From contig JAPNXP010000002.1 in NCBI GenBank assembly GCA_028753945.1, forward strand, positions 1,054,001 through 1,118,000: 64,000 nucleotides of DNA, read 5' to 3'. Position 1 is the first letter of the stretch, and each line of letters starts with the position of its first letter. Under the pieces are notes generated by a model, which was not told where the DNA came from, did no database searches, and saw nothing but the letters and a program-made list of their open reading frames with translations. A program made the translations under genes and the position numbers. Source of the stretch: Hexactinellida sp. DTS-2022. Its lineage: Eukaryota > Porifera > Hexactinellida. Positions 16,283 through 46,757 of the stretch are shown piece by piece.

Positions 16283-16670
16283 TTTCGATTCAAAGTATAA
16301 ATAATTATTTCAAGAAATTGGATCTGGATACATTTCTAAGTATTTATACTTAGAATTGAAGCTTCAGATTGATTTGAATGTTGTTTCTATCAATTAATTG
16401 TTGGCTAGATCATTCAAGGAAAAACTATCTGTCGTGATAGGCAAAAGGAAACTCAGAGCAGATTCTCAATATAAAAGAAGTAGCAGAAGCTACGTAAAGT
16501 GAACTTTTAGGAATGAAGGGAAGCAATGCGGTTCTTACATTTTGAAAATGGGTACGTATTTTGAATGTTATATGATTCTGGAATAATTCTACTATACTCA
16601 TAAATGTATTTGTAAAATAATGCGTAGCATGTAACTTAATTAAACAGTATAACCACCATATTAATACAGT

Positions 16671-16796
16671 CAGGGGCGGCGGGAGGGTGGGGCCTGTGCC
16701 CCACCTGAATTTGAGCGTGCCCCACCTGAGGTTGGGCACAGGCCTAAATTAATGTTAGTGTGCCCCACCTAAGGTACCGCGCTAGCGCCGCCACTG
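16671..16796. mobile_element. hAT-type miniature element, TSD AATACAGT
   Basis: 126 bp flanked by identical 8-bp AATACAGT (16,663-16,670 and 16,797-16,804). The termini are CAGGGGCGGCGGGAGG and GCTAGCGCCGCCACTG. The interior repeats 'gtgccccacct' three times. A relative lies at 58,980-59,148. Confidence 0.9.
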
Positions 16797-17098
16797 AATA
16801 CAGTGTATAATTCTGAGATCATTACATATGTAGGATACTCGTTTAAAACCAACATTGGAATAAGTAACTTTAACTGCTTTACAACAAAAATTAATCAACA
16901 ACAATTCAAATAGATACAACAAACATCTCCAAAGAATACATGGAATACAGGCCAGAAGAAAGATGGGGCAAAAGGTTGCAACATAATCGAAAAGGACCAA
17001 GATTGATATTCAATTCAATAACAAGGAAGCACAGACAGATTAAATAATCGCTGAAAATGATGAAGGTCAATCAATTCAAATGAATGAGTGTTCAACTG

Positions 17099-17638
17099 CA
17101 GAGTTGTGGATTTGATTGATATTTCATTCAAATCCAAATCAAATCAAATCAAATCCAAATCAAATCCTTCCAAATCAAATCCAAATCAAATTCAATCCAA
17201 ATCAAATCCATCCAAATCAAATCAAATACAAATCAAATCCATCTAAATCAAATCCAAATGCTACAGAGATAATTAATTGAGATTCGTACTTAGTTAGATA
17301 TAATATAATATAATATAATATATACTACTGAATTATACGGATATTTATTCACGTTAATTCGAACGCCAGCCAACAAAATCTGTTCGAATTACCCAAAATT
17401 ACGATTTACGAGTCCAATGTTAGTGTATTATCATCAATATCATATGTATTACATATTGTATAGTACGTAAATAAAATTTTAAAAAGGATTTGACTCAAAC
17501 ATTAAATCAAATCCAAATCAAATCAAATAATAGTCAATCAAATCCAAATCAAATCAAATCATTTTCCTTTTAAAATGCATCAAATCCATCCAAATCAAAT
17601 CCAAATCAAATCCAAATCAAATCAAATCCACAACTCTG
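17099..17638. mobile_element. hAT-type element, TSD TTCAACTG, interrupting the recombinase
   Basis: 540 bp with termini CAGAGTTGTGGATTTG / CAAATCCACAACTCTG (imperfect inside) and an identical 8-bp duplication TTCAACTG on both sides (17,091-17,098; 17,639-17,646). Removing one copy rejoins 'gagtgttcaactgggacac', which matches the uninterrupted sister copy at 16,020-16,035. The interior is two arrays of (AAATCAAATCC)n and a (TATAA)n run. Confidence 0.95.
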
Positions 17639-18234
17639 TTCAACTGGGACACAACTCGATTATGAAGAAACCAAAGAGGCAAATGATAATTTACCGATTG
17701 AAGCAGAAAAACCACTCATAGACAGCATGGGAAGAAAAGCGGAATTATATTTAGAAGAGACATTATTTGGGAATAGTACAACAGGAAATTCCATTGAACA
17801 GGAAAATTCAGTTTCGCTACTTTACTCCAGGATCAAGAATCGAAGAGGACCATTTTCTAACACATGACGAAGTTCCAGAAAGATTAATTGTTCAGAAACA
17901 ATCGAACATAACGAAATTGATGTTTCAAGTGATCACTTGCTGCAGGATTTAGATTTTTGGCTGACATCAATGGATGGTGGGTGTTATACCAACGACACTA
18001 CAAAAAAGCTTGCATGGTAATAAAAACACTTCTACGCAATCTAAAGATGCACGAAATCATCGACCCAATCAAAGTGTGCGAGTATTTTGCACGAAACAAA
18101 ATGATGAAGGAGTGTGTGTTGCAAGTACAAGTGTGTACTTGAGATATTTTTAATCCTTTATTTCTTTTTTCATGAAAGCAATCCCTCATGCTTTCTTCTG
18201 AAAAATACAGAGACTTAGAGCAAAGGATTTCAAG

Positions 18235-18490
18235 GTAATTTACATATATTTCTACGTATATTGTATACGCATATTGCAGTCAATTCGCGTTTCCGTTCAA
18301 AACGCGTAGGCATTAGTAAACTTAAAACGTGAAATAGCTGAAAGATCTACTTTCACACGATATTGCTTGAGCGTAAGGATTGGTAGGGCCATCTTGGCAT
18401 ATTTGTGTTAGCTTCTATGGAGAATAGACAATTATTGGAAGTGACATGGCCTTACCAGCCCTACCGGAGCCTACGACTATGAAAATGAAC
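18235..18490. other. Gap between recombinase exons, nothing recognised
   Basis: Starts at a plausible splice donor. It lacks the first half of the catalytic domain present in the 33.7 kb copy, so this is an intron plus a deletion or replacement. Confidence 0.4.
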
Positions 18491-18777
18491 GGAATTCAAG
18501 AAAAAAATCACATCTACGGGTTCAAGGAAAGCAGCAGCAACGTTTATTGCAAAAACCAACCCGAATAAGTCACAGATCGTTGCTGATTTCATGCAGCATC
18601 AGCATAATACTTCTGAAAAATATTACAGACAGTTAGGAGGCGGAGATCACCTTATTGAAGGATATGAAGAAATTGGGAAAATTGAGAAAAGTACAACAAG
18701 TCAAAATGTATAATTGCATCATTATATCTTCATATTGTAACTTGTTCACAAATGAGATTTTGATACGAAATAAGACA

Positions 18778-19040
18778 TACCGTATTTCCCCGAATAAGCG
18801 CCCGGCGCTTATTGTTTTCGTGGGCCAAAATTATCCTGAAATTTTTGTGAAAAATCCAGAATATAATATTTAGGTCGGTTCTAATAGTTTCCACCAACAG
18901 TATACCTACCGAAGTTGCCAAAATCAATGGAATTACATTACAGTGATCAACTAATGTGCATAAATTTTATCATACCAATGTCATTTTTATTGACCCGGCG
19001 CTTATTCAAGCCATCGGCGCTTATTCGGGGAAATACGGTA
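18778..19040. mobile_element. Miniature element with CCGTATTTCCCCGAATAAGC ends
   Basis: A perfect inverted pair: 'ccgtatttccccgaataagc' at the left and 'gcttattcggggaaatacgg' at the right, flanked by TA. GGCGCTTATT repeats lie subterminally. There is no coding capacity. Confidence 0.9.
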
Positions 19041-19092
19041 GTTTATATACGTATATGCTGCGTGAAGGGGTAGGGAGTTAGAAAACGATATA

Positions 19093-19279
19093 CAGTCGAA
19101 ACCGGTTTATTCTAACTCGGGTTATTCTAACTTATCGGTTTATTCTAACTATTAGGGATGCAATCTTTTGTAAGAAATTCCAACTTTACTAATATTTTTC
19201 ATCGGTTTTTTCTAACTATCGGTTTTTTCTTACTATTTTTATCTGAAAAGAAATGGTTAGAAAAAACCGGTTTCAACTG
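19093..19279. mobile_element. Tigger/pogo-type miniature element
   Basis: CAGTCGAAACCGGTTTATTC and the inverted end 'gaaaaaaccggtttcaactg' lie between TA dinucleotides. Internal 'cggtttattctaac' blocks repeat. Confidence 0.85.
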
Positions 19280-19300
19280 TAATTCTAAAATCTTAACAAA

Positions 19301-19781
19301 TCTATACTATTAAAGGCTGGGTGTATGTGTGTATGTTCCGAGTTAATTGAAGAAACTGGACGCTTTCCAAATGTGATTTTTGACATATGTGGTTAACTTT
19401 TGGCACCCGCCAACAAGTTGAGGTTTCCACTCGAAATTTCTCAAAACTCGACAAGTGTTGACGTCTTGTCACATTTCGAGAACCCTGAAAATTGACTTAA
19501 TCGCACATAATTCGCGTCCTCTAAGAGATAAAAATCTGAAAATTTAATAGAACATGTACATTAATGATGCGGACACGTTGGTACACCAGATCACCACTAT
19601 GCTAACTCATTATCGCATGATGACGTAATCATTAAAATTTAACATTGTTATATTTGACTATTTAGGCCTTTTTACGCTTTATAATCAATATTAGGAGTAT
19701 ATAAACCACACATCAACCGCGAAGCGGTTGGTGTGTGGTGTGTTCTGCCGCGAAGCGACCTAGCAAGCGAAGCGCGCTAGT
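19301..19781 (+). mobile_element. Non-autonomous Helitron
   Basis: The 5' end is TCTATACTATTAAAGGCTGG after an A. The 3' end is CTAGT before a T, preceded by a CTAGC...GCTAG stem and a second hairpin (CCACACA...ACCGCGAAGCGGT...TGTGTGG, 19,706-19,739). This is the expected Helitron signature: 5' TC, 3' hairpin plus CTRRT, insertion between A and T. A second copy lies at 53,950-54,204 and a 3' end only at 33,556-33,632. Confidence 0.85.
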
Positions 19782-19791
19782 TATAATAATA

Positions 19792-21456: not shown

Positions 21457-21926
21457 CATAGGCGGCGGAAGCACTGCGAGCACTGCGAGCATGCGAGCAC
21501 CTATATTTTCTCAGAAAATTTGGACCTAATTATTTTTAAGGGCATCAACTGCATTTATAACACCAGTGATCAGAATATTCAGATATTCTATTTGGGTTTA
21601 ATAGATACAGTAGACTCCGCTTAATAGAGCAACTGGTTAATCGGATCAACCTGACTAATCGGGTCACTTGGCTAGAAACAGAAACATTTAAATAGCGTTA
21701 AATTACTCCGGTTAATCGGGCCAACACCTTTATTCCGCTTAATCGGCTCAAAATGGCCTGGTCCCGACTCCCGATGTGACCCTATTAAGCGGGGTAAACT
21801 GTAAATTCTGTAATTATGTACTATATTAATAATCACTTAGTCAGCTATTATTTGGGCCTATTTTTTGTTTTTTGGGCCTAAATGAGGAGTGCTCGCACCT
21901 ACATCTAAATGCTTCCGCCGCCACTG
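21457..21926. mobile_element. hAT-type element, TSD ATCCATCC (middle level)
   Basis: Termini CATAGGCGGCGGAAGCA and TGCTTCCGCCGCCACTG with exact 8-bp ATCCATCC on both sides (21,449-21,456; 21,927-21,934). The interior carries 'gcgagcac' repeats. Confidence 0.92.
21608..21801. mobile_element. Tigger/pogo-type miniature element (inner level)
   Basis: CAGTAGACTCCGCTTAATAG ... 'ctattaagcggggtaaactg' between TA dinucleotides. Same family as 12,643-12,827. Confidence 0.85.
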
Positions 21927-27081: not shown

Positions 27082-29546
27082 ATATTATAAGAAGATATGG
27101 GTATGGAGAAATCACGAAATTTTGATGTTTTCAAGATGACGGCCAAGAATTTTCGGAATGGTTCGGACTAAAGCCCGCTCTCGAAATTACTTGTTAAATG
27201 ACCTCGTAGTGTGACAAAGCAGGAAGGCATGTCATTCTCCCTTCGTTCACTGGCGGACCTCGCCACATGATGGGCCTGTATCAAGACGCGATGGCAATTG
27301 TTCGTAGGTTCGGAAAGCCCCATCTGTTCGTGACCTTCACATGTAATCCGATGTGGCCGGAAATCCAGAAAGCGTTGGAGCCAGGACAAATGGAGGATCG
27401 TGGCGACATATCCAGGTTGTTCGAACTCAAGAAGGATGCTTTGATGGATGATATTCGTAACGGCGCCTTCGGGCCTCTGGCAGCTCACTGTTACACAATT
27501 GAGTTCCAGAATCGAGCGAAGGAGAGCGCTTCTACTTGCGTATACTTCTCACGCATGTGCGTGGCGCCAAAAGTTTCATCGAGCTTCGGACTGTTTATGG
27601 TCATGCCCCGTGTGAGATCTTCAAGGAAGCCTGTCGTCTGCGGGGGCTGCTTGATGATGACAGCGAGTGGGACACGTGCCTTCAAGAGGCTGCTACTCAC
27701 ACCAGTGCGCAGCTTATAAGACAGTTGTTCGTATCGATACCCTATTCTGCGAGCCAACTGATCTACCTGCTATCCTCGAGGCTCATTCGGATGCGATGAC
27801 AGAGGACTTCGTGCACCGATTTCGGACGAGACAACCTGATCTGCCTGTTGATCAAGTATTGCATGGAGCCAGGCAGTGTCTTCTACACGACCTACAGCGC
27901 CGACTGAACGCCAACAATAGCAGTTTGTCTGCATTTCACTTGATTGGTCCCAAGGCTGAGCGGCCGCTTCTCCCTCTGGATGGTGACGATGACGAATTCA
28001 CAGAAGAAGTCCTGGAGCGGCTACGTGATGAGATAACCGCCAGGGAAGAGTCCCTTACGCCCGACCAACGTCTTGCATACGATATACTGAAGGGAAAGAT
28101 CGAACGGAACGAAGGCGGTATTGTTATCGACGCCCCCGGTGGGACTGGCAAGACGTACCTGCTCAACCTATTGCTCATATACTCAACGCTCAATGGAAAG
28201 TTGACACTGGCCACTGGAGCTCTGGGATTGCAGCAACTCTATTGAAAAGTGGAACTACAGCTCTCAGGGCTTTCAAGCTTCCTATTCTCGCAAATGGAAT
28301 CTCAATGTGCGGCTTCAAACGGATTGATGCAGCCGGGAGGCGAATTCGGGAGGCATCTATCTTGGTGTGGGATGAAGCCCCCATGCAGCACCGCTGGAAT
28401 TTGGAGGCCTTAGACCGCTCTGTGCGAGATGCAATGAAGGAGTCGGGTCAACCCATGCCCCTGCAGCCGTTCGGAGGGAAGCTGCTCATTCTTAGCGGTG
28501 ACTTTCGTAAGATTCTGCCTGTGGTGAAGCGTGGAGTGCGATCCCAGATCGTCAACGCTTGCATTACAAAGTCTGAGCGACTGTGGTCGCAGACGCAGAT
28601 TATTCACTTGACGACTAACATGGCGTACGGAATCTGCTTCCCAGATCCAAGAGTACGCAGACTGGCTGCTTCGGCTCGGTGAGGGACGGATCCCTGTAGC
28701 TGCAGGCTTTGACCCAAATTCCAACATTGTGGCTTCCCTCGCGAGCTTATCCTGCAGGCCGAGATTAACGAACAGAGCGAGGCCGACATGCTGATCGACC
28801 ACGTGTACGCGGGGATCGAGGAAACGGCCAACCACGCTAACCCTGAATGGTATGCAGAGCGTGGTATTCTCGGAGGGACCAACTAAGTGATAGATGAGAT
28901 GAACTTCAAGGTACTCAGTCGGCTGCCCGGCGATGAGGTGATCCTGCTAAGCGCAGACTCTGTGGCTGAATCAGAACAGCAGATGGCGATCCCCACAGAA
29001 TTTCTCAACACCCTCACTCCATCCGGGATCCCACCTCACGAGCTGCGGTTGAAGGTGAACGCTCCATCATGCTCCTGCGGAACATGAGCCCAAAAAACGG
29101 TCATTGTAATGGCACACGCTACATCATCACTGCTATCCATGGCACTCGACTGATCGAAGCGAAGATAATCAGCGGTGACCATGCGGCAAACCGCATCCTC
29201 ATTCCTCGAATTCCAATGCAGCCCTCTGACAAGGACTTCCCGTTCACTCTGAAAAGGCGCCAGTTCCCTGTGCGACCGTGTTTTTGTATGACAGTGAATA
29301 AAAGTCAGGGGCAGAGTTTCAAGCGCGGGCGTATATTTGCCAAAGCCCCTCTTCACACATGGACAGTTGTATGTAGCCGCATCACGAGTTGGTGACCCGA
29401 GGGCAATCCGGTTTGTAATTAACCAGGCTTCATACAAACCGCTGATGGCAAAAGCAGGGAGTAAGCGTGCCGTACAGCTGGACCAGAAATATATCACAAA
29501 TATTGTATATCAAGAAGTATTTAATTATCTAACCTGTAATCAATAA
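27082..29546 (+). pseudogene. Helitron Rep/helicase gene, decayed and internally deleted
   Basis: Order of surviving parts: VILPSFTGGPRHM at about 27,235; DAMAIVRRFGKPHLFVTFTC (Rep-side Helitron_like_N domain) to about 27,510; an abrupt jump to LRILLTHVRGAKSF, a helicase-side segment. The Rep catalytic HxH/YY region is deleted. Next come RTVYGHAPCEIFKEACRLRG, LTPDQRLAYDILKG and Walker A DAPGGTGKT at about 28,130. Walker B ILVWDEAPM is near 28,365, then GGKLLILSGDFRKILPV. FLNTLTPSGIPPHELRLKV, MTVNKSQGQSF and HGQLYVAASRVGDPRAIRF end the Pif1-type (SF1B) helicase, with a stop at 29,546. At least seven frame changes occur (near 27,525, 27,720, 28,235, 28,640, 28,740, 29,070 and 29,330). It begins directly after the 3' end of the Helitron at 26,128-27,081. 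GC content is clearly above the surroundings. Confidence 0.92.
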
Positions 29547-32104: not shown

Positions 32105-33362
32105 CTGAGTGATAATATCGTTTTTCTGTTTCTGTATTTGTAGCTAAGTAAAGGGAAATATCATTAGATGGCAACAGCCAGTATTCCTGAGGCTAACAGT
32201 TTTGAGTCTCAATTGATTCAAATTAAATCCGATATAGAAACTCAATTCAATTAATTGATTAATTATATGAAGGAAAGAGAGAAAGAACTTTTGAGAAAGT
32301 TTAGAAGAAACAATATTTGCGACTCAATAGTTCTTGAGGAGGGGTAAGCCAGTTTATTTAAATAGTAAGGTACATAATAAATTAAGTGCAATAATTATTT
32401 GCAATTTTTATGCTTAAATTCAGACATCACATACTAAGAAAACACAACATTTCAATAAAAAGCACAGAGGGGAAATTACTCTTAATTAAATCGAGGAGTT
32501 CCACATTGCCATTGGATACATATCTGGCTCCCGTAGAAGAACAGGTGCCGGACGAAGATTTATTAACACCAGATGAGAATAGCGGAGATGACGTAGAAGA
32601 TTCTGAAGTAGTAGCACAGGAAGAAGATTTGTTAATAACAATACAAAACAACAACGAAGATGAAAACATCCACAAAATTGCATTTCCTGATTTGACAATG
32701 TCCACCTCGGGAAACTCCTCATAGTTTGGGAATGAGACAATTAAGCAAGTCGTCTATCCCAACATTACGGAATCATTGAATAATACAACACCAGATATTA
32801 TGTTTTCATCGCCCGAATCTTCTAATCAGTATAATGAAGAAGCATTCTTTACACCACCAGAATCACTAGGAAGTGAAATAATTTACCCCCCAAAACAGAT
32901 TTTGAGGAATGGATGCTATCCATGGATGGTGGTTGTCAAACTCAGGACACTTGTTACAAGGCAAAAATTATAATCTCTAACATGTTGGACTCAATAGGAA
33001 TTCAGGATATATTGACAGCCGATAAGGTGTGCAAATATTTTACCTCCCGGCAAATGCGGAGGGAATTAACAACGAGCAGCACTGATGTATATCTCAGATA
33101 TTCTTCTTCTTTTACGCTGTTCCTTCACCAAAAGCTCAAAACCTTGTTCCCCTCAATACTTACAGTGATATAGAACAGAGGGTCCAAAGGTATGTCCCAT
33201 TTGATTATCCATTTAATATCTTACCCTAGATTAACTTATCTTTTTAAATATAGTACAACTCGTATAGTATGAGCCCCTGCGGAATAATAATTATGCATTA
33301 ATCAAATTAACCTTGCATGAACATATTTACTTTTGCAAATCTGTTTAATACATAAGTATGTA

Positions 33363-33560
33363 CATGGCCTACTATAATACGGCTATACATGCTGCCGAAT
33401 CATAGTAGAAAATAAGAGTCCAGTTTTGTAATTTCATTCTAAGCTAAACTATGCTTCCTATTGGCATAATTTACATTGTGTATGGGGTAATCAACCATTG
33501 CGAGTCCAATGGAACCACTTTTGAGATTCTGAGATTTGTGGTTAAGCTGTTTAGGCACCA
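33363..33560 (+). mobile_element. Solo left TIR of the long-TIR element (X)
   Basis: CATGGCCTACTATAATACGG onward matches 45,657-45,857 over about 195 bp. It lies in the intron between recombinase exons 2 and 3. Confidence 0.8.
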
Positions 33561-33632
33561 CACACCAACCGCGAAGCGGTTGGTGTGTGGTTGTGTCTGC
33601 CGCGAAGCGACCTAGCAAGCGAACGCGCTAGT
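33556..33632 (+). mobile_element. Helitron 3' end only
   Basis: 'accgcgaagcggttggtgtg' hairpin and the 'gcgaacgcgctagt' terminus match the Helitron at 19,301-19,781. Its 5' portion is absent and replaced by element X. Confidence 0.8.
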
Positions 33633-34389
33633 AATAATTATAGAGCAGCGTTAATAGGGGAAGTGATATTTCGAAGTGCGCAGAGGAGCAGCGTAGTACT
33701 AGGAATGAAAAAAAAAAACGAAGTTTCAAATGCCCAGGAACAGGATTCGCACGAAAAAATAGTAGTTTTCAATCATAAAACGGGGAAAATACGGCCAGCA
33801 GTTGTTTTTCTTGAAAGCCTAGCTGCTGCAGCGTTTGAGAACTTTTTTAAAGCAATACTGCCACAAATTGACAATTCAGAGAAAATAACAGTCCAATTTT
33901 TATTATCGTATAGTGGCAAACAAATCAATCATGCTGGCATACAGTGTAGCTTAAATAAGCTGATAAACTTAACAGGAGCACTAAAATAATCACATCGACA
34001 AAATCTAGAATAGCTGCGTCCACGTTCATAGCTACATCGAATCCAGAAAAAACTCAGGTGGTTGCGGACTACATGCAGCATCAAGCTAGCACAGCTGATA
34101 AATATTATAGGAAAATGGGAGGGGGAAGTCACTTGATAAATGCGTTTGATGCGATAGGGGAAATAACAAAAAATATTAAATAAAAAGTAATGTAATTATG
34201 AAATTTTAGGACAAAAGAAACAGTAAGCAGAAAGTTCAGAACAAAGGAAGCGGATAAATTATTAGAGTAGAGATCAACAATAACAAAGTGTAGTGTAACA
34301 TGTATAAGTGTGCGAGTGTGAAATGAGTGAATATTTATTATAAAGAGATTTGAAAATATGAAAATGAAATAATTTATAATAAGGAAGGG

Positions 34390-35020
34390 GTCAAAGAGGA
34401 CCTTACGGGATATTGGGACCTTAACGGGATATTTGGACGGGTAATTGGGACCTGAACGGGATATCTGGACCTGAACGGGATATCTGGACCTGAACGGGAT
34501 ATTGGGACCTAACGGGATATTTAGACTTAACGGGATATTGGGACCTGAACGGGATATTTAGACTTAACGGGATATCTGGACCTGAACGGGATATCTGGAC
34601 CTGAACGGGATATCTGGACTTGAACGGGATATCTGGACTTGAACGGGATATCTGGACCTGAACGGGATATTGGGACCTGAACGGGATATTTGGACCTGAA
34701 CGGGATATTTGGACTTGAACGGGATATTTGGACTTGAACGGGATATTTGACTTGAACGGGATATTTGACTTGTATATGAAAATGGGCCCAAGGGAATATC
34801 ATTATCAATATTGAACAAATAGAATTAAACGGGATATTTAGACTTAACGGGATATTTGGACCTGAACGGGATATTTGGACTTGAACGGGATATCTGGACC
34901 CGAACGGGATATCTGGACCTGAACGGGATATTTGACTTGTATATGAAAATGGGCCCAAGGGAATATCATTATCAATATTGAACAAATAGAATTAAACGGG
35001 ATATTGGGACTTAACGGGAT
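34390..35020 (+). repeat. 19-bp minisatellite array, orientation 1
   Basis: About 33 units of AACGGGATATCTGGACCTG with T/G/C and one-base length variants. A 'ttgtatatgaaaatgggccc' interruption occurs twice (about 34,768 and 34,937), so part of the array was duplicated as a block. Open frames rich in the repeated peptide text are by-products of the period. It continues beyond an inserted element at 36,477-36,556. Confidence 0.95.
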
Positions 35021-36476
35021 CCGTAGCGGATTTACCATAGGGCTGCTCGGGCTAAAGCCCTAGGCCCACAACATTTTAGGCCCAGTTTAGGTCAACTTGC
35101 CCTGGGAATCGGATTGATTTGGGAGTAGAAACTAGTTTCCTCTGTATATAGTTTGCTTCAGCTAAACCCGAAGTTTCCATAAAATGTTAGCAACACCAGA
35201 TACATAAGTATTTCGTGACATTTTTCTGAATAAATTTGTCTATCCATATATTAAAAGCACAATTTTGTCTGATTCTGTGTGTGCTAGTCTAGAATTATTT
35301 GGGAAGACATATGCACTAGAAATATACAAATTGGCATGCAGGTGTAATTTTACACGTTCACAAATATGAAGTGGTCTTTACGTCTTCTAAACAAAATATC
35401 GGCATTCTGAGTCATAAAAGCGCATAACCTCAAACTTCCAAACGTCACCCTTATTGATGTATTGTCAAACTAAATATGTACTCATTTACTAATGATCACC
35501 TTTAATGATAAAAATATGGACAATAAACTTTCTGAGATGCGGGGAAATTCCCGGTACGGGCGCCCTTCGTTAAAAGTGCCCGGATATGGGAGGTTTGAGT
35601 GTATTTTGGAATAACTCATTCGTTAAAGTCCGAATCGGCCACAATTTTAGATTACAAGGCAGCATAAAATGAAGCACTCGTACGATTTATGGGATTATAG
35701 CCTCACGTGGGAACTAATTGGATTTAATCCTACAATTTTGATTCAGTCGACACAAAATTTTCACAATATACTATATATTGTATTGTAAATTTAACAATTT
35801 CACTTTTAATCTGCGTCAGCTATTATCAAAAACGTACCTCAAACTGCTTCCTCATAGATCAGATTGTGTTTTGGATATTCAATCTTCACCTACATTTTTC
35901 GCAGATTGCATTATTTGATTAATCCAGTTAGGCTTCCATCTGTCTACTTCTATTGCTGATTTATTTTTGCTCACGTCAATCACATAATCATGCATGATAT
36001 TACTTTCAAAGATATTCAACGATTTACCCGCCTATATCTTCTGGATTGTAAATGACATATTGATCCAACAATTTATTGTCAGGCTGGAAAATCTTGGTAT
36101 TAAATAGCAATTTAATTAATAAGTTGAATTACATTGATTCACAAATTGCGACAAACTAATCTGAATTAAATTAAGTACGTGTAATTTACAATTCACATAC
36201 TTAACATATTTATTATGAGTGATCTTTTGAGGTTGGTAAGGTCGCGAAGCGTCCGTTAATTGTGTTTTGCAGTCTAACACGAACGAAATAAGGACACGAT
36301 GCGACCTAGTCCTTAGAACTGGTTTATATTAATAGTTATTTTGGAAGAAAAAGTGTTATTTCAATGTTTCTGCTTAAATATGTAAAGTAGAGACTATGAT
36401 TAGAAAAATTAAGGATATAAAATAGGCCCAAAAACAATAAAAGCCCTAGGCCCATAACACCCTAAATCCGGCACTG
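35021..36476. mobile_element. hAT-type element inserted in the minisatellite, TSD AACGGGAT
   Basis: Identical AACGGGAT at 35,013-35,020 and 36,477-36,484. The ends 'gcggatttaccatagggc' and 'caccctaaatccggcactg' are weakly inverted; both ends also carry 'gccctaggcccataac'-type blocks facing each other. The 1.46-kb interior has no transposase and appears to hold a Helitron. Confidence 0.85.
35239..36310 (+). mobile_element. Candidate nested Helitron
   Basis: 5' TCTATCCATATATTAAAAGC with 'ttgtctgattctgtgtgtgc' and a 3' end ...GCGACCTAGT after GTCGCGAAGCGTCC. The signature is right but the flanking bases do not clearly fit A/T insertion. Confidence 0.45.
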
Positions 36477-36556
36477 AACGGGATATTGGGACCTGACCGG
36501 GATATCTGGACCAGACGGAATATTGGGATCTGAACGGGATATTTGGACCTGAGCTG
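36477..36556 (+). repeat. 19-bp minisatellite, right remainder
   Basis: Four degenerate units after the inserted hAT-type element, same orientation as 34,390-35,020. Confidence 0.9.
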
Positions 36557-36799
36557 GATGTTTTAAATTAGTTTATCGTGTCTCTTTTTCTTCATTCATT
36601 TATTTTCTCCCCTATTTTTTTCAATTGATAATATCATTTTTCTACCAAGTCCAAAAATCCCGTATAGTCGTGGTTTACTATATGTATCTACGTAACAATA
36701 AATTATTTATTAAGATTAGTTGTGTTTAGCTTTACCTCAAGATACTACTGAATCAGTTGGTTTCCTTTTGGGAATTCACATATTGGTCAGAAAGGATAA

Positions 36800-37235
36800 T
36801 CGTTCCAGAACTCGCAAGGAGGAGCGTATTGAAAAGTGGAAGCCGTTGTTCGACTCAGATCCTTGGCTGAGAGCGAATTAGTTGTGGAGGTAGTGGCGGT
36901 ACGGTTAGAGGCTGAGATGTTGAGGCGGCTTTTCAGGTGCTGTTCCTAAACTTAGACCCACCCCCAGATCCTCATGGAGCTCTACAAACCTTGTGTAGGA
37001 CAGACGGGGCGCAAGGTGAAGAAAAATACGTATTTTCTATCGACTAATGAACGCAGGGAATGAAGCTATGGCCCCAATGAACATTATTCGCGGCGTATTA
37101 GTGGTACAGTTACCGGAATCCGTACAACCCTCTAATAGAGAGTGGCTCAAGAAGGATGAGAATACAGAGCTCACCATCACCAAGGGTAGGGAGTTTATTC
37201 TGCAGGTTGAAGTGGTGCTGGAAGATAAGGGTTAG
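36800..37235 (+). pseudogene. Unidentified GC-rich coding-like segment
   Basis: One frame gives VLFLNLDPPPDPHGALQTLC and EEKYVFSID to a stop near 37,045. A second frame opens at 37,047 with 62 codons (IIRGVLVVQLPESVQPSN, TITKGREFILQVEVVLEDKG). Composition and codon use resemble the coiled-coil relic at 13.4 kb more than the local AT-rich sequence. No domain is recognised. It could be the decayed remains of one protein with a frameshift at about 37,045. Confidence 0.35.
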
Positions 37236-37509
37236 AAACACGACACAGGTTATCGCGATATGGGGCGGATCGCTCTGACGAGAGAACAGGAGGATAACCC
37301 CGGAGATAGGTAGACGAAGGGAAGGAATCAATCACAGCAAATATCAATCACAGCAAATATTCTCGAAGTGGGGATATCTTGAATGTACACCATTATCCCT
37401 TTAAACAAATTTGCAATAGTAAATATCTCATGCAAAGTAAATTTGATTAATACAAAATTAATACACCTTCAGCAGGGGCTCATACTACACAAGTTCTACT
37501 ATATTCAAA

Positions 37510-37916
37510 ATGAGAAGTTAATTAGGGGTAATATATTAAATGGTAACTCAAATGGGACATACCCATGTTCTCTCTGTTCTATGTCACTGTAAATATTGAG
37601 GGGGAACAATGTCTTAAACTTTTGGTGAATGAAGAGCGTAAATGAGGAAAAAAACCGGAGATAAACATCTGTGCTGCTCGCAGTTAGTTCCTTCCGGATT
37701 TTCCTGGAGGTAAAATATTTTGCAAACCTTATCGGCATTCAGTATCTCTTCAATTTTACTGAATCTAATATGTTGGATAATATCATTTTTGCTTTGTAGC
37801 AAGTGTCCTGGGTGTGACAACCACAATCCATTGATGCCATCCATTCTTCAAAATCGTGCAAAGTTTGCTCTTTGGGGAGGTAAAGTATTTCATTTGTTAC
37901 TGACAGTGACATATCT
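37510..37916 (-). pseudogene. Recombinase core-binding exon, third copy
   Basis: Minus-strand text LHDFEEWMASMDCGCHTQD, then (after a shift near 37,740) NADKVCK, SSTDVYLRFFSSFTLFIHQK and SDIEQREHG reaches a GTATGT site. It is the counterpart of exon 2 of the 32-34 kb copy, and the non-coding sequence after it (to about 37,400) also matches 33,200-33,350. The exon is cut off at its 5' side exactly where the Harbinger TIR begins (37,917). It has two frame changes and is dead as read. Confidence 0.7.
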
Positions 37917-38229
37917 GGGGCCGTATTCACTAAGAAGTTAAGTTCGAACTTAAGACTTAAGTACTAAGTTCGAACTTAAGTCGTATTCACTAAAATTGGT
38001 ATTCACTAAGATTTTAGTTCGTACTTAAGTTCGAACTTAAGTACGAACTTTAAGCAAGCTAGGGAGGTTGCTTAAGTGATTTTGTATTAGACTAAATTAA
38101 GAATTTCTTCGGATTCGTAATAATAATAGCATACTTTTATGCTACTCTCTAATTTGGTTGGCACAATACAAGTAAAATCGTTATATATCTGCACACTATC
38201 TATCTATGTAGTCTAGCTAATAACAAAAT

Positions 38230-38977
38230 TTATGATTTTTCTAACAGCTTCTGACGTTTCAGCCTGTAGTACTCCCTCTGCTCTTCAATTAGCTGAAGTT
38301 GTGCTGTGAATACAGCCATCTGTTGTAACAGCACTTCCTGCTGTAAAGGAAGTAAGTCCGCTACCTTCATTTCCGGCTGCTGCTGGGACTCCGTTGTACG
38401 TTGATAATCTGCTGGATCACGTCTTCGCTTCCTACTTTTCTTCCCGTTACGATTAACGTTAACGTTGGGTTCTTCGGGAGCATACAAAATTGACGTATCG
38501 TCTACAGTACCGAGCTGAGGAATCTGTTCGCTGCTGGCTGCTGTTTGCTTTTTGACACGAAATTATTGACAGCAACTGAGATTCCGCTAAAAGCTGGGGT
38601 GGTCTCAAACATCTCTCTAATTCTATCAGAATTAGTTTTACTCCAATCTGCAGCTAAAATTAACACGTCTTCGTCTTCGACAATTCCAGCGGAGTTTGAG
38701 CCCCCTCCGGTCATTTAGATTCCCTGAAGCTAGCATCAACTTTTGACTTGGCAGCTAACTTCAGGCTATTCCATTTCTTTCTTATGTCTTCTACCCCTCT
38801 ATTATTTCCATATACAGCGTTTACTTTGCCTGTAATGGTTTTCCACAGTTCCTTCTTCTTCTTATTGAGGTCAGCGCTGTTTCCTGAACCTCTCAATAAG
38901 TCGCCAGAAGATTCAATTTCACCAATGAGCGTGCACTCTTCTTCCTTAGTCCAATTTATCTTCCTGGATTTTTCCAT
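38230..38977 (-). pseudogene. Harbinger Myb/SANT-like DNA-binding protein, two frameshifts
   Basis: The start at 38,977 gives KINWTKEEECTLIGEIESSG, WKTITGKVNAVYGNNRGVED and RKKWNSLKLAAKSKVD, a trihelix/Myb-like (Myb_DNA-bind_5-type) domain of about 80 residues, typical of the second protein of PIF/Harbinger elements. The frame ends in an overlapping ATGA at 38,711-38,714, where a second frame starts (SAGIVEDEDVLILAADWSKT). A further shift near 38,545 leads to VDDTSILYAPEEP, a basic patch (GKKSRKRRRDPADYQRT) and a C-terminal coiled coil (LQLIEEQREYYRLKRQKLLE) ending at 38,230. Without the two shifts this is one protein of about 245 residues. A nuclear role in DNA binding for the transposase is expected from the family. 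Confidence 0.8.
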
Positions 38978-39175
38978 TCCGTTTAGAATTGGTTTTGTTC
39001 AACAGCAATTTATACAAATGGGAGAAAGAACATTGATCTAATTCCCCCACGAAAATTAATCTTCAATGGAATTACACGTACGTATATGCATTTGTTATTT
39101 TGGCATCAAAGCTACTTTGTATATGTATAGAGAACTTAACTGTTTCATTTTTAGAAAGACTGACGTACGTAGACA

Positions 39176-39366
39176 CAGGGCCGGATTAAGGTCTTCGTAG
39201 GCCCTAGGCACTTTGAGGATACCAGGCAGCATGCAGCAATTAGGCCCCAAATTTTTCGTAGGCCCCAAATTTCGTTCGTAGGCCCCAAAATTTCGTTCGT
39301 AGGTCCCAAATTTTTCGTAGGCCCTAGGCACAGTGCCTACTGTGCCTATTGGATAATCCGGCCCTG
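39176..39366. mobile_element. hAT-type miniature element nested in Harbinger, TSD CGTAGACA
   Basis: CAGGGCCGGATTAAGG / 'ggataatccggccctg' ends with exact CGTAGACA on both sides (39,168-39,175; 39,367-39,374). The interior repeats 'cgtaggccccaaat'. Confidence 0.95.
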
Positions 39367-39482
39367 CGTAGACACTCCTCTAAATGTTCTTAGGAAGCAC
39401 TTGTCTACATACCAGTAGTATATTTCTTTTTTGAATTAATTAAATATACTTCAACTAATTATCTTCATTTACATATATAAAT

Positions 39483-39690
39483 TCAATCAAAATTATGAAT
39501 AGAAAATTGGTCTCTGTAATGCTTAGCAGCCCAGTGTCCCAATTCTTCAATTACAATTGGTTCATCCATAAGTTGGTCAATAGGCGAATCGTCCTGCATT
39601 GGTTTCTTCCAAACTATAGCCATATTATTTAGCCATTCTTTAATAAATAAGAGATTCACAAAACATTGTAGGCAACAAATATTTATGTAA
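39483..39690 (-). pseudogene. C-terminus of Harbinger DDE transposase
   Basis: Minus-strand frame: NICCLQCFVNLLFIKEW, then DDSPIDQLMDEPIVIEELG and HWAAKHYRDQFSIHNFD before a stop at 39,483. The ending resembles the tail of DDE_4 Harbinger nucleases, and the position upstream of the Myb-like gene within the same TIRs fits. All catalytic Asp/Asp/Glu positions are outside the remaining piece, so the element cannot make its own transposase. This frame is below 60 codons as an uninterrupted ATG ORF and is easily missed. Confidence 0.6.
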
Positions 39691-39928
39691 ATATTTAGGT
39701 ATATTTACTATATTATTATTTGAGGCCGATTCCAAACTCCAAGAGAATAGAAATTGAGTGAAATAAAATTAAAAGTAAAAAGTTCATACTTAAGTTCAAA
39801 CTTAACTAAGTTTGAACTTAAGTTTGAACTTAACTCTTAGTGTATACGACTTAAGTTCGAACTTAACTAAGTTTGAACTTAAGACTTAAGTTCAAACTTA
39901 GTGCTTAACTTCTTAGTGAATACGGCCC

Positions 39929-40331
39929 CAGGGGTTTTCAACCTTTTGTACCATGCGACCCCTTTACAGATGCAGAAATGCTCGCGACCCCCCACAATGT
40001 TAATGTGAAAGTTTTTATTAATGTGTAATAAGTATTCCCATTGTTTAATTAAATTGATGCACCTCATGTTTCAAGCATATTCTGACAATTATGAATAACT
40101 ACAAGGTTATATATTTAAAAATCATCGCGAATGCCCTGAAAGCTCATTTCGTTAATATTGCATGTACATTACACATGCAGCACTGCATTTTTAAGTACAT
40201 GCACAATGTCCACACAATATACGCATTTAATGTAGATAATTTAAATAAGTTTTGACTTATATCTCGGTAGATTTAACGATTTTATATAAATTTTCCGGAA
40301 CTTCACGCGCCCCCCAGGTTGAAAACCCATG
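39929..40331. mobile_element. hAT-type element abutting Harbinger
   Basis: CAGGGGTTTTCAACCTTTTG and 'caggttgaaaacccatg' are inverted ends, with 'gcgacccc' / 'gcgccccc' just inside. It touches the Harbinger terminus, so no target duplication is readable on that side. Confidence 0.7.
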
Positions 40332-40400
40332 ATTTAGACTATAGTAGACTATAAAAGTTAATAACAATTAATAAGTAAACTTCAATTAATATTTTTCATC

Positions 40401-41179
40401 ATGGCAACAATTCCTAAAATTTCGTGTACCCTTTGCGGAAAAGACGTCATCAAACTAAGAAGGCATTTAAAACAATGTCATAACGACATAAATCAAGAGG
40501 AAATTAACAAAATCATTATTCAAGAGAAAATAATTTCCAACAATCAAGAAAATAAACTTATTTGTTGCAAATTCGAGGATGAAATCAAGAGTGTCTGCAA
40601 TGCGATAGTTCTTGAGGAGGGGTAAGTCAGTTTATTTAAATAGAAAGCTACTTATTTAAGTGAAATGCATTAATTATTTGCAATTTTACGTTTAGATACA
40701 GACATCACATTCTGAGAATGCACAAGATCTCCATTCAGACTACAGTAGGGAAACTACTCCTAATTAAATCTAGAAGCTTCAATAGTATTACTCTACATGC
40801 CGAAGTAGAAGCTGTTCCCGAAGAAGGAGCTTCGTTTTCAAGAGTAGCTGAGCATGAATCTCAAATACCGTTAGCAGATGAGCAAAATCCGTTACCATGT
40901 CAAGACGACTATGAACATGAGGTATTTTCGGAAGTACCTGGAGCAGAGGAAGATTTGCTCGCAACAGCAACAGAAAAGAATTATGGAGAAACAAACGAAA
41001 TAAGATACAGAGAAAAAGAATTTAAGAAATGGCTCATAGCAAAAAAGAAGATGAAGAGCACTACATCGCAAAGATTTGCGAAATGCATGACAAGCCAGAT
41101 TCAAATGAACATAGGAAATATAGAGGAATATATGGAAAATTTTATAAAAGAAAAAAAAGAAAAAGTACATACACCATGA
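40401..41179 (+). CDS. Two-exon zinc-finger/recombinase N-terminal gene (best-preserved copy)
   Basis: Exon 1 (40,401-40,621) encodes ISCTLCGKDVIKLRRHLKQC followed by His, a single C2H2-like finger (C-x2-C, then H-x4-C-H), and ends IVLEEG. Donor GGTAAGT and acceptor CGTTTAG bound a 74-bp intron (40,622-40,695). Joining gives an uninterrupted 234-codon frame, and the join reproduces the YRHHILR text seen in the 32-kb copy. Exon 2 carries HHILRMHKISIQTTVGKLLL, an acidic linker (to about residue 150), then EFKKWLIAKKKMKSTTSQRF, which lines up with FEEWMLSMDGG...TQDTCYKAK of the other copies as a core-binding segment, and a Lys-rich tail. It stops at 41,179. No catalytic domain follows before the minisatellite at 41,385, so it may be a truncated protein or the first part of an element cut by the array. 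No in-frame stop or shift is visible. Confidence 0.6.
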
Positions 41180-41384
41180 AGAAGTGGGCGGTAGGATACA
41201 TAGATGAATTCTGGGAAGAAAAAGAAGGAGGAAAATATCTTAAGTAGGAAAAAGAATGCATTCAGACACTTAAATACATTTTGTTAAGAAAAATAAATTA
41301 AACATTTCAGAACCACCGTTTAATTCCATCTTTCCAGTGTTGATTATGTCATTCCCTTAGACCCGATTGTCTTAAACCCCGTTA

Positions 41385-42530
41385 GGTCCCAATATCCCGT
41401 TCATGTCCCAATATCCCGTTCAGGTCCAGATATCCCGTTTTGTTCTATCTGTCCAGTATTGATTATGTTATTCTCTTAGATCCGATTGTCTTATACCCCG
41501 TTCAGGACCCAATATCCCTTTCAAGTCCCAATCTCCCGGTCAGGTCAAGATATCCCGTTAGGTCCAGATATCCCGTTCAAGTCCAAATATCCCGTTCAGG
41601 TCCCAATATCCCGGTAAGGTCCAAATATCCCGTTAAGTCTAAATATCCCGTTAGGTCCCAATTACCCGTCCAAATATCCCGTTCAGGTCCCAATATCCCG
41701 GTAAGGTCCAAATATCCCGTTCAGGTCCCAATATCCCGTTCAAGTCCAGATATCCCGTTCAAGTACAAATATCCCGTTAGGTCCAGATATCCCGTTCAGG
41801 TTCCAATATCCCGTTCAAGTCTAAATATCCCGTTAGGTCCAGATATCCCGTTCAGGTCCCAATATTCCGTTCAAGTCCAAATATCCCGGTAAGGTCCAGA
41901 TATCCCGTTCAGGTCCCAATTACCCGTCCAAATATCCCGTTCAGGTCCCAATATCCCGGTAAGGTCCAAATATCCCGTTCAGGTCCCAATATCCCGTTCA
42001 AGTCCAGATATCCCGTTCAAGTACAAATATCCCGTTAGGTCCAGATATCCCGTTCAGGTTCCAATATCCCGTTCAAGTCTAAATATCCCGTTAGGTCCAG
42101 ATATCCCGTTCAGGTCCCAATATTCCGTTCAAGTCCAAATATCCCGTTAGGTCCAGATATCCCGTTCAAGTACAAATATCCCGTTAGGTCCAGATATCCC
42201 GTTCAAGTCCAAATATCCCGTTAGGTCCAGATATCCCGTTCAAGTACAAATATCCCGTTAGGTCCAAATATCCCGTTCAGGTCACAATATCCCGTTCAAG
42301 TCCAGATATTCCGTTCAAGTACAAATATCCCGTTAGGTCCAGATATCCCGTTCAGGTTCCAATATCCCGTTCAAGTCCAAATATCCCGTTAGGTCCAGAT
42401 ATCCCGTTCAAGTACAAATATCCCGTTAGGTCCAGATATCCCGTTCAGGTTCCAATATCCCGTTCAAGTCCAAATATCCCGTTAGGTCCAGATATCCCGT
42501 TCAAGTACCAATATCCCGTTCAGGTGGGCC
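41385..42530 (-). repeat. 19-bp minisatellite array, orientation 2
   Basis: About 60 units of CCCGTTCAGGTCCAGATAT, the reverse complement of the array at 34,390-36,556. A ~265-bp block starting 'cccaattacccgtccaaat' is repeated (41,655 and 41,917), showing higher-order duplication. The start also carries two copies of an 'attgattatg..cttagacccgattgtctta' leader (about 41,340 and 41,457). Open frames inside are period artefacts. Confidence 0.95.
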
Positions 42531-44382: not shown

Positions 44383-45601
44383 GCTGGTCATAATCTTAAT
44401 TTGGTGCTGAATGATGTTGCAAAGGAAGTTCGCAAGTGTTATCATATCGTGACGCTCGTAGGTAAGATCGGGGCATATGTGAAGAATTCAGCAAAAAGAA
44501 AAGTACATTTCGATCAGATATGAGTTGCGAACTCAGAAGACGGTAAAATTGGCAGCTCAAATGTACGGCCCATTTGCCCAACAAGATGGATTCTAAGATA
44601 CCCGGCAGTAAATGCTATTTTGGAGAATTATGAGGATCTTCTTGACTTCCTAAGCACCTATAGCGACAATGAAAACAAGGCACAAGGATATGTTAGAGAA
44701 CTTCAACGCTTTGAAGTATATTTCGGGGTACGCAATCTACATCGTATCTTTGGTCAAGTCCACCCAGTTCACAATGCAATCCAATCAGAATCAATGTCAC
44801 TGGGGGAGTGTTCAAGTATAATAACTGCACTCACTGCTGCATTGAGAATAGACGGAGAATCCGTGGATATTTTCACTGTATTCATGACTAGCTGCAAGAC
44901 TTCAGCATCAACTATGGGCATTGAATTGCTTGCAGTTCCTCGAGGCCTCGCGAAAAGGGTGAATAGAGGAAATAGGGTTGACTGGGAAATTGATGATGCC
45001 GTTGTTGATAATTATTACCATGGTATTTGGACAAAGATGTATAACTCTCTTGTAGTATCACTGACAAAGCGTTTTCAAGGGAAGGCAATTGACATTGCAC
45101 GGGATTTTCAAGATATTATGTCCAATATTAGTGAGGATTCTAATTATGAATTCCCAAGCATGAACTCACTCATGGAGCTCTACACAACATATCTTAATTG
45201 GAAGTTTTTGAAGTTAGAGATGATGCAATGGGATCGTGTTAGTAAAATATCCAACCCCTACCAAAAACACGACTGATCTGAAGTACCTTCACAAGTGTCT
45301 TTCTGAGAAGTCTGATCATCGTCTCATGTGGCCTAACTTGGTTTTATTCCTTAAGCTCTACCTTCTTTTACCTTGTACGTCATGTTCTTCCGAACGCGGA
45401 TTTAGCTGCCTAAGACGTATAAAAACGTATCTTCGCAGCACAATGTCAGAAGACAGATTGAATGCATGCGCATTATGCAATGTACATAATGAAATATTAG
45501 ACCAATTGGATATTGGCAAAATCACTGACGGATGGATTAATAGGAGTGAGGTCAGGATGAATCGATTTGTGCTAAGTGAAGATAGCTTGAGGAATTATTA
45601 A
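44383..45601 (+). pseudogene. ZMYM-class hAT transposase, C-terminal two thirds
   Basis: Begins mid-protein right after an X terminus: AGHNLNLVLNDVAKEVRK, an in-frame TGA at 44,521, VRPICPTRWILRYPAV, then a long open frame (44,620-45,276) including LLDFLSTYSDNENKAQGY and ELLAVPRGLAKRVNRG. A shift near 45,265 leads to LPCTSCSSERGFSCLRRIKT, the hAT dimerisation block, and ends RFVLSEDSLRNY at 45,601. This gene type (DUF4371/zinc-finger MYM-like hAT) cuts and pastes DNA with 8-bp duplications and could in principle have mobilised the hAT-type elements in this window, though this copy lacks its N-terminus and has a stop and a frameshift. The N-terminal TTF/BED-type finger region is absent. Confidence 0.88.
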
Positions 45602-45656: not shown

Positions 45657-46757
45657 CATGGCCTACTATAATACGGCTATACATGCTGCTGAATTATAGT
45701 AGAAAATAAGAGTCCAGTTTTGTAATTTAATTCTAAGCTAAACTATGCTTCCTATTGGCATAATTTACATTGTGTATGGGGTAATCAACCATTGCGAGTC
45801 CAATGGAACCACTTTTGAGATTCTGAGATTTGTGGTTAAGCTGTTTAGGCACCATTTAACGATGACGGTAACAATTTATGGTAAAATGAAAAAAAATTCA
45901 AATATCATAAATTTCATTTTCTTCTTACTTTCTAATAATTTTATAACACGAATACTAAAATAGGAATTTATTTCATACCCCAAAGGCTACTAAATCACAA
46001 AATGGCGACATTCTAAAAATTTTTAAAATTCTAAAGCAACCACATGCTAAAATACAAGTATTATCCGAATTACAACTTACTATTTTCGTCCATAAAATGT
46101 ATACAATTGCTGGTTTATATATATTCATTCTCATTATATATTCGGAAAATGTATACTAAGTATATTAGCAAATTATTTTCATTTTCTCCTAGTTCTTTAG
46201 ACTCGAATTGTATATTTTGTATATTTGTGATGTCATCGTTAATTGGCGCCTAAACGGCTTAACCACAAATCTCAGAATCTCAAAAGTGGTTCCATTGGAC
46301 TCGCAATGGTTGATTACCCCATACACAATGTAAATTATGCCAATAGGAAGCATAGTTTAGCTTAGAATTAAATTACAAAACTGGACTCTTATTTTCTACT
46401 ATGATTCGGCAGCATGTATAGCAGTGCTCGACAAAATTAAATTTTGATGGTGGCTAATTAAGCCACTACCTCACTTTTTCTGGTGGCTAAAGAATAATCA
46501 ACGGCCGGTTTAACAAACCACTGATGGCTTGACAAACTTCTGATGCCGGTAATAACACTAATTTTAATAACAAATATTGAATGAGCAATATAATCAAGAC
46601 AACATCAAATAATTCCACAATTTATGGTGGATTAGTTAATTTAGTTAAGCCACCAAAGTTATAATTTGGTGGCTTAAGAAAGATTTTTGGTGGCTAACGC
46701 CACCAAACCACCTAATTTGTCGAGCACTGATGTATAGCCGTATTATAGTAGGCCATG
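45657..46757. mobile_element. Long-TIR element X, full copy
   Basis: About 211-bp inverted repeats: CATGGCCTACTATAATACGG at the left and its inverse at the right, extending inward to 'ttaacgatgac' / 'gtcatcgttaa'. The right arm is interrupted by a hAT-type element at 46,422. The 360-bp middle has no coding signal. Target duplication is unclear. Confidence 0.85.
46422..46729. mobile_element. hAT-type element, TSD ATGTATAG, in X
   Basis: CAGTGCTCGACAAAATTAAA ... 'taatttgtcgagcactg' with exact ATGTATAG on both sides (46,414-46,421; 46,730-46,737). Facing 'ggtggctaa' / 'ttagccacc' blocks lie inside. Sister copy: 63,694-63,993, opposite orientation. Confidence 0.95.

Follow-up and report, generated by a model that had tools for sequence, protein, structure and literature searches.

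A family of putative tyrosine-recombinase DNA transposons with terminal inverted repeats, site-copy arrays and a head-to-head partner gene in a hexactinellid genome

Our results indicate that relics in the window (the whole 64,000-nucleotide stretch analysed) are members of one DNA transposon family whose movement depends on a tyrosine recombinase (YR) encoded by the elements themselves and most likely passes through a circular form; we put the probability of this reading at about 85%. A sequence-only reading had proposed a mobile YR family with a zinc-finger first exon, and this proposal is upheld. New here are 31-bp terminal inverted repeats (TIRs), arrays whose 19-20-bp units are copies of the terminal repeat, and array copies apparently devoid of genes. 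In the host genome a search for the TGF-beta domain gave 4 matches, in line with an animal; a Wnt search gave 0, as it did in every control genome. This layout was not described in the titles and abstract openings of the literature searched, subscription literature lying mostly outside that coverage. It is an even call whether the family constitutes a superfamily of its own among animal YR transposons, equipped with a built-in attachment system: an inherited 7-bp core, site-copy arrays spreading without genes, and head-to-head genes matched by a palindrome.

Elements in the window

The earlier reading counted at least five relics sharing one exon order. The shared text stood: 32898-33348 and 37855-37401 (minus strand) were 82% identical in DNA, 32327-32498 and 40605-40776 were 81% identical, and the tails at 33989-34180 and 18504-18692 had 62% protein identity (BLAST within the window). 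The count did not stand. The window holds about three elements rather than at least five copies of one gene, because 37.5-37.9 kb is a core-binding exon only, on the minus strand and not a full relic, and the regions at 14.9-16.3 and 40.4-41.2 kb, in which no catalytic part was seen, represent a second gene type. The 32-kb relic, previously ended at 34.3 kb, continues beyond that point: a 19-bp repeat array follows, and then a terminal repeat whose last base is 36678. The window copies are damaged by stops, frameshifts, and losses or insertions.

Element I
15410-16289, minus: partner gene (gene 2), broken (ORFs and match to B-family gene 2)
about 16289-16077, minus: finger-like start of gene 2 (ORFs)
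16188-15826, minus: linker of gene 2 (ORFs)
15825-15733, in other frames to about 15410, minus: C-terminal F..KWM...KKK part of gene 2 (ORFs)
16900-18692, plus: YR gene, broken (ORFs; tail 62% identical to the 34-kb tail)
16900-16983, plus: second-finger half of the YR gene
16993-17097 and 17637-17813, plus: YR linker, split by AAATC-type repeats at 17125-17628
17946-18112, plus: YR core-binding part
18504-18692, plus: YR catalytic tail
within 15855-17814: inverted-repeat arms, 15855-16032 with 17637-17814 and 16023-16124 with 16997-17098 (98% each)

Element II
32168-32343, plus: variable first exon of the YR gene, ending ...ICDSIVLEE(G) at donor GG/GTAAG, without the first finger and with one in-frame stop
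32424-33189, plus: YR exon 2, with the HH half of the split finger, acidic linker and core-binding F..WM..DGGC; frame broken
33363-33642, plus: repeats inserted in intron 2 (BLAST within the window), 33363-33560 being 98% identical to 45657-45854 and 33557-33642 93% identical to 19705-19791
33660-34180, plus: catalytic exon, with AQRSxV (Arg I), HKTG (Lys), STKSR (Arg II), YMQHQ (His) and KYYR (Tyr); frame changes near 33986
34405-34934, plus: 3' array of the 19-bp unit ACGGGATATTTGGACCTGA
about 35018-36474: read as a later insertion within the array
36474-36552, plus: further ACGGGATATTTGGACCTGA units, past this stretch of about 1.45 kb
36641-36678, plus: right terminal repeat TCTACCAAGTCCAAAAATCCCGTATAGTCGTGGTTTAC, with 1 mismatch to the A-family terminal pattern

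Element III
37401-37855, minus: YR core-binding exon and part of intron 2 (BLAST within the window)
37915-40333, no strand assigned: later insertions splitting the element, namely 37915-39931, with matching ends 37915-37942/39931-39904, and about 39935-40333, read as a second, short repeat element; we take them to be Harbinger-like and hAT-like
40401-40621, plus: gene 2 exon 1, with C2H2 finger CTLCGKDVIKLRRHLKQCH and the CC half of a second finger
40702-41244, plus: gene 2 exon 2, with the HH half of finger 2, acidic linker and FKKWLIAKKKMKSTTSQRF... C-terminal part, without a catalytic domain
41378-42525, minus: array of the 19-bp unit, in the same sense as the element III YR gene

Searches of the window found neither terminal repeats of element I, nor the left ends of elements II and III, nor the catalytic exon of element III.

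The recombinase and its partner gene

The Arg...Arg...Tyr catalytic part proposed earlier was borne out. The window tails have in common the order R...K...R...H...Y with KYYRxxGGG, and the R, K, R, H and Tyr columns, assigned by eye, are present in most rows of the alignment; the H of HxxR is replaced by T or S, and by N in L046. Compared with tyrosine recombinases, the catalytic exon matched, so the earlier proposal withstood the refutation set for it. The Pfam profile PF00589 was matched by 7 of 12 sequences at E<=1 (best E 3.9e-8), the catalytic exon of L034 alone scoring 22.3 bits, under the 27.1-bit gathering cut-off. Single exons gave no useful Pfam match, whole catalytic exons or the sequence set being needed, and a phmmer search of the PDB with L046 returned no relevant match. 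The catalytic domain has the tyrosine recombinase fold, with fold matches including the Tn1549 integrase. At the level of sequence, the YR fold and most of the catalytic residues are established. In addition, at E<=1 the 64-aa tail had 53 genomic matches, two of them the window's own (best other E 4.8e-36), and the whole L034 catalytic exon gave 67 genomic matches at E<=0.001; this recurrence is far beyond chance. The splice points also repeat as claimed, GT-AG sites agreeing between elements II and III, L031 and L034.

The regions at 14.9-16.3 kb (minus) and 40.4-41.2 kb (plus) share finger and linker with the YR gene and are read as a divergently transcribed partner gene. Its C-terminal part is recognisable in the A, B and window-I lineages (22-27% identity between A and B), with matches between lineages at E 1.6e-6, linking B-family gene 2 to element I (G000:C11:1069523-1069657, minus; window 15523-15657), and at 1.7e-5. 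A PDB profile search gave nothing under E 0.29 for this part, and comparison with the YR core-binding profile gave no clear tie to that fold. Gene 2 stands head to head with YR sequence in all seven loci where both were read, and has open frames of 223 aa in L034 and 281 aa in L052. In the YR copies L031, L036 and L041 an array lies directly upstream, leaving no room for gene 2, and at C18:3940011 a faint gene 2 match (E 0.03) shares its strand with the YR gene of L040. The arm comparison in one pair of copies, with arms delimited by a repeat finder, gave 16:0:0. The two-gene layout and, for that one pair, the homogenisation of the arms are established as features of the DNA.

The partner gene could be a truncated, decaying and functionless duplicate of the YR gene, since it has no catalytic part, several copies are broken and some elements do without it. 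Such decay fits poorly with a C-terminal part still recognisable in three lineages, with the two long open frames and with the repeated head-to-head arrangement, and we consider it rather unlikely.

Ends, target sites and arrays

The TIRs are 31 bp long, and in 14 of 17 copies the two are identical. The copies were picked by a terminal-repeat pattern, and this selection accounts in part for how alike their ends are. Flanks outside the terminal repeats differ between copies. In these 17 insertions, oriented by the better core match, a 7-bp core, ACARTAG, occurs at one end only; in L072 and L073 it barely distinguishes the ends (1 vs 2 mismatches). The core is constant, being ACARTAG in the B family and ATAGTAG-like in the A family, whose junctions, read in few copies, are less regular. 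The target, TT-N5-AG/DAAT, resembles the joined ends of the element. No clear target duplication was found at the 17 paired insertions relative to shuffled pairs, the mean shared flank being no more than 0.16 nt longer than with shuffled partners. The terminal repeats, the arrays, the junction structure and the absence of clear duplication are established from the copies themselves.

The array units copy the terminal repeat at 19 of 20 positions in B and 16 of 19 in A. Many short array copies carry the same ends as the larger elements; in L104-L106 the reading covered just the units. At several loci the YR gene has an array on either side; arrays also occur without a YR gene, one of four B-array clusters containing a YR (clusters among the best 100 of 486 matches listed). 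The distance test gave 8/15 by cluster, two adjoining C1 bins counting as one, and 3 of 16 bins (C15:1.04, C1:12.36 and C4:3.89 Mb) had neither YR match nor terminal repeat; the places include the best 100 of 106 matches from one listing. Other units occur in L038 and L040, those of L040 in both senses. In the sequence-only reading, the arrays had not been recognised as part of the element.

Three other accounts of these ends and arrays were weighed. Ordinary DDE transposons or MITEs may own them, with the YR genes as passengers inside: subterminal repeats are common in such elements, and the 31-bp TIRs and many short copies look like theirs. This is very improbable given a target duplication not clearly above that of shuffled pairs, a single constant core confined to one end, and a target like the joined element ends; moreover, no further long ORF was noticed in the listed parts of L034. 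Just as poor a prospect is that plain Crypton-type YR elements prefer pre-existing minisatellite arrays as targets outside the element, as arrays on both sides of YR genes and arrays without them could suggest. We dropped this, our own first reading, on finding the terminal repeats outside the arrays; the units copying those repeats, the short array copies with the same ends and the differing flanks also speak against it. A DIRS/Ngaro-type YR retroelement whose reverse transcriptase was lost in this genome is the least credible of all. DIRS-type elements likewise combine a YR with inverted or split repeats, as has been described (PMC4157794). Against it, the DNA between the arrays is about 93-97% identical in L034 and L035, the L034 ORF lists (plus strand, about 1.2 kb to the YR end; minus strand, 1-2700) revealed only the YR and gene 2, and the introns are conserved, which argues against an RNA copying step.

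Proposed mechanism and known systems

A two-gene element of this family has the following layout: a terminal inverted repeat, a short leader, an array of 19-20-bp units and the antisense partner gene; a head-to-head inverted repeat encoding the zinc-finger/linker part of both genes; and the sense YR gene, an array, a leader and the second terminal inverted repeat. No copy of the group that was read is intact. The fingers may guide the YR to the terminal repeats and arrayed units, and the YR would pair both ends, giving a circle with the joint GGTTT-ACARTAG/GAAACC. This joint would recombine with a weak chromosomal copy, TT-N5-AG/DAAT, which would leave the 7-bp core on one side of the insertion and the spacer of the target on the other, with no target bases duplicated. 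That the core is one-sided hints at a strand bias in forming the circle, possibly by copy-out. The partner protein might bind the same sites without cutting, serving as an accessory factor or an inhibitor. Gene conversion across the inverted repeat may keep the two sets of fingers alike, and the active recombinase and its catalytically dead partner could then recognise the same fast-changing site. We infer the circle, the finger-array binding and the partner's role from genomic sequence, through which the family is known here and in which no circle or movement was seen.

The assignment to Cryptons (CryptonF/S/A/I; Kojima and Jurka, 2011) stands in part. In that description (PMC3212892), Cryptons are likewise eukaryotic DNA elements with a YR as recombination enzyme, non-autonomous copies and a proposed circular intermediate. 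According to that account they lack TIRs and long direct repeats, and animal Cryptons showed no terminal repeats, whereas the present family has TIRs, internal arrays, a YR-less partner gene, an intron-split finger and a readable attachment core. The 4-6 bp terminal direct repeats of fungal and stramenopile groups are not seen either, the core lying at one end only. "Crypton-like" is fair for the YR-driven mode of working, a likeness that falls short of showing membership in Crypton.

Integration resembles that of circular YR elements of the Tn916/Tn1549 type, for which T-rich and A-rich target half-sites 6 bp apart and a short coupling sequence at one end are described (PMC12084037). Here, too, a YR would join without clear target duplication, with a short spacer between half-sites and the element's spacer at one end; the likeness concerns integration mode, not descent. 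Those elements are bacterial and conjugative and take the coupling sequence from the donor site, whereas the core here is constant. Similarly, a bacterial two-YR element (PMC10214605) has YRs between short imperfect inverted repeats, extra proteins, and the circle's spacer at one end with the target's own at the other. It differs in carrying two YRs, two other genes and a 6-bp spacer, in contrast to one YR with a catalytic-less look-alike, a 7-bp constant core and large unit arrays. DIRS/Ngaro elements share a YR and complex terminal repeats, but theirs carry reverse transcriptase, and none was noticed among the L034 ORFs listed.

With ends that could not be recognised, animal YR transposons have given little access to the way they select and join DNA; for animal Cryptons, no terminal repeats are reported (PMC3212892). 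In this family, ends, core and target can be read from many copies, so the mechanism is directly testable. The palindrome-coupled partner gene offers a concrete idea for how a transposon enzyme and its regulator could be kept matched, and the arrays offer a source for some 19-20-bp minisatellite families.

A recombinase gene and its partner

The sequence-only reading had listed at least five related relics in the window. The relics belong instead to three elements (I to III), and those at 40.4 kb and at 15.4-16.3 kb carry another C-terminal part and represent a second gene, here called gene 2. The tyrosine-recombinase (YR) and partner genes of the window are as follows.

15.4-16.3 kb: element I, gene 2
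16.9-18.7 kb: element I, YR gene
from 32.2 kb: element II, YR gene
37.4-37.9 kb: element III, YR fragment
40.4-41.2 kb: element III, gene 2

The text reported as common to these copies was confirmed by DNA alignments of 81-82% over 173-457 nt in the within-window comparison, and the recurring splice points were also borne out, with the same GT-AG boundaries in elements II and III and in loci L031 and L034 elsewhere in the genome. In searches of the 112.4-Mb assembly (18 contigs), where the window is C11:1054001-1118000, the 64-aa catalytic tail matched 53 places at E<=1, and a whole catalytic exon, that of L034, 67 places at E<=0.001. As we read the fingers, the second one is interrupted by intron 1, its CC half closing exon 1 and its HH half beginning exon 2; in the single-frame relative L047 it is uninterrupted, and in L046 it likewise lies within one frame. 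None of the copies of this group that were read is intact, so the YR enzyme is inferred from decayed copies. In L046 (574-3564, minus) and L047 (942-3386, minus) the YR frame runs without interruption, over 997 and 815 aa respectively; both have two N-terminal fingers and a common C-terminal extension, and they are 28-29% identical to the exon of L034. The few kb of sequence around them showed neither A- nor B-type arrays (those of the two subfamilies).

Queries with the C-terminal part of gene 2 from both subfamilies matched about ten genome places at E<1e-4, and read by eye this domain looks core-binding-like. Gene 2 and a YR gene stand head to head in L034, L035, C17:891959/893748 and the window pairs 15.4-16.3/16.9-18.7 and 37.4-37.9/40.4-41.2 kb. 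C1 has a near-identical pair of loci (16.404 and 15.228 Mb) where a YR core fragment lies immediately upstream of gene 2 on the opposite strand, and on C7 the YR is 15 kb off in the right orientation. Further gene 2 matches lie at C1:11.03 and C11:1.90 Mb. A weak gene 2 match at C18:3940011 (E 0.03) runs against the pattern, as it shares its strand with the YR gene of L040. The YR copies L031, L036 and L041 have no partner gene, and their array is immediately upstream of the YR gene. In A-type gene 2 the acidic linker has a repeat of its own, an 18-bp coding unit that stays in frame (QEGASL...; L052 901-1743 and L058 about 1824-2516, minus) and whose number differs between gene copies.

The half common to both genes is carried by a palindrome. 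The repeat finder returned arms of 921 nt in L034 (99% identical, spacing 30 nt), 389 and 301 nt in L035 (97%), and 178 and 102 nt in element I (98%), and the same search found no inverted-repeat arms in L058 (C17). Between L034 and L035 the arms share 686 columns, in which 16 informative sites unite the two arms of the same element and 0 unite the same gene across elements, and the YR bodies are 97.5% identical. In this one pair, homogenisation of the arms therefore postdates the split between the copies.

Arrays and element ends

TRF showed that mostly 18-20-bp-unit arrays surround the YR copies, with ACGGGATATTTGGACCTGA or ACGGGACGAATGGACCTGA as the unit in subfamily A and GTACCATTAACCTGTTTGGC in B. 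The arrays had the same sense with respect to the YR gene in all 13 A/B loci among 15 scanned. Some of these loci are related copies, and at the chosen stringency L039, L042 and L043 had only scattered units; L038 and L040, which complete the 15, carry different ones. The sense was also the same in the 8 unit-bearing loci among nine further ones (L012 had no units), three of them with an additional two-unit patch of opposite sense. In the C1:16.40 and C17:0.89 clusters, which hold nested copies, the gene-2-side array runs opposite relative to the head-to-head YR fragment. L040 represents another YR lineage, in which one side carries a distinct 20-bp unit, TAAGGGGAAACAAATGAGCC, in either sense (oriented positions 4950-5105 and 6708-6943).

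In 9 of 16 100-kb bins (8/15 by cluster, as two adjoining bins form one), an A array lay no more than 5 kb from a YR match, a zone that covers 0.4% of the genome. Among the other seven bins, four had the terminal repeat within 0.3 kb and three had neither. The 100 B-array hits listed of 486 formed 4 clusters, one with a YR. The unit is a copy of the inward portion of the terminal repeat (19/20 bases in B, 16/19 in A). In the copies examined (L031 and L106; L034, L104 and L105), array units have the same sense as the core-bearing end. Judged by sequence, the arrays are part of the element.

Loci that carry arrays have the same outermost sequence even where their outer flanks differ. For the B terminal repeat the genome has 54 occurrences at <=2 mismatches, 27 per strand (reversed-sequence control, 0), and 36 of these pair, by inspection, into 18 elements of 0.7-12.4 kb, in all of which two free bases within the pattern match between the ends. 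One pair, C16:4483100-4495518, contains the YR gene and gene 2 of L034. The A repeat occurs 19 times (10/9 by strand; control, 0), and its forms AAACATCG and AAACCACG lie at opposite ends in 3/3 pairs. L104 and L105 (B) and L106 (A) have both ends and arrays within 0.7-1.3 kb, too short a length for the two genes. The YR and gene 2 genome searches gave zero matches in an 8.6-kb copy, C1:218.8-227.5 kb.

Junctions and comparison with known systems

All B pairs but one (17 of 18) were read at both junctions. The terminal repeats were identical at both ends in 14/17, partly by choice, because the copies were found via that repeat. With the better core match placed on the right, ACARTAG follows the right end (exactly in 16, with a mismatch in one). 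Ahead of the other end, on whose outside the search made no selection, stands a variable stretch that differs from the core by 2-6 mismatches and closes with GG (16) or GT (1). In subfamily A, L031, L084, L087 and L102 have ATAGTAG as the core at their AAACATCG end, and L088 and L101 have a less strict version. A clear target duplication was not found at the 17 B insertions, where mean shared flank was 0.35/0.59/0.76 nt by end setting, against 0.31/0.43/0.65 nt with shuffled partners. The joined flanks give a left half of TT (17/17, 15/17), five free bases, A (11/17) and G (17/17), and a right half of not-C (17/17), A (13/17), A (16/17) and T (15/17). This target resembles the element's own joined ends, GGTTT-ACARTAG|GAAACC. 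The L070/L071 insertion lies in repeated DNA, and an intact unit equals the joined flanks at 16/16 bases.

Tn916 inserts where a T-rich and an A-rich half-site are separated by 6 bp, and its coupling sequence comes from the donor (PMC12084037). In contrast, the one-end spacer here is constant across copies and is therefore inherited with the element. Circle formation that always took the spacer from the core end could produce such a spacer. In bacterial SEs the circle's spacer is placed at one end and the target's is retained at the other (PMC10214605). The core-end strand bias proposed here would be comparable to that of SEs, elements believed to move by copy-out. Cryptons are the closest eukaryotic kind, and the family is not filed with them because their published description excludes terminal inverted repeats, which are present here.

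Other elements nearby

The presence of introns and 4 genome matches in a TGF-beta domain search make an animal host most likely. That there were only 4, together with 0 in a Wnt family search run without a positive control, is a hint of an early-branching animal. Other elements were seen in the window.

12635-12835, 19091-19281 and 21606-21803: small elements whose inverted ends are of the TACAGTCGA type
27168-29509: helicase-like ORFs, presumably Helitron
37915-39931: element with matching inverted ends (GGGGCCGTATTCACTAAGAAGTTAAG type) inserted into element III, which we take to be Harbinger-like
44524-45601: broken transposase-like ORFs, assumed to be hAT

The small elements could be mariner-type MITEs, and the one at 19091-19281 also has a 17-bp unit array, resembling a miniature of the YR element design. 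Transposase ORFs beside or within YR elements (L041, minus of oriented 1691-122; L060, about 783-2800) are presumably P-element-like, with a THAP-like motif at the start. A 265-bp element with perfect 25-bp inverted ends (window 18778-19040 and L031 4585-4855) adjoins the 3' side of YR genes at two separate loci.
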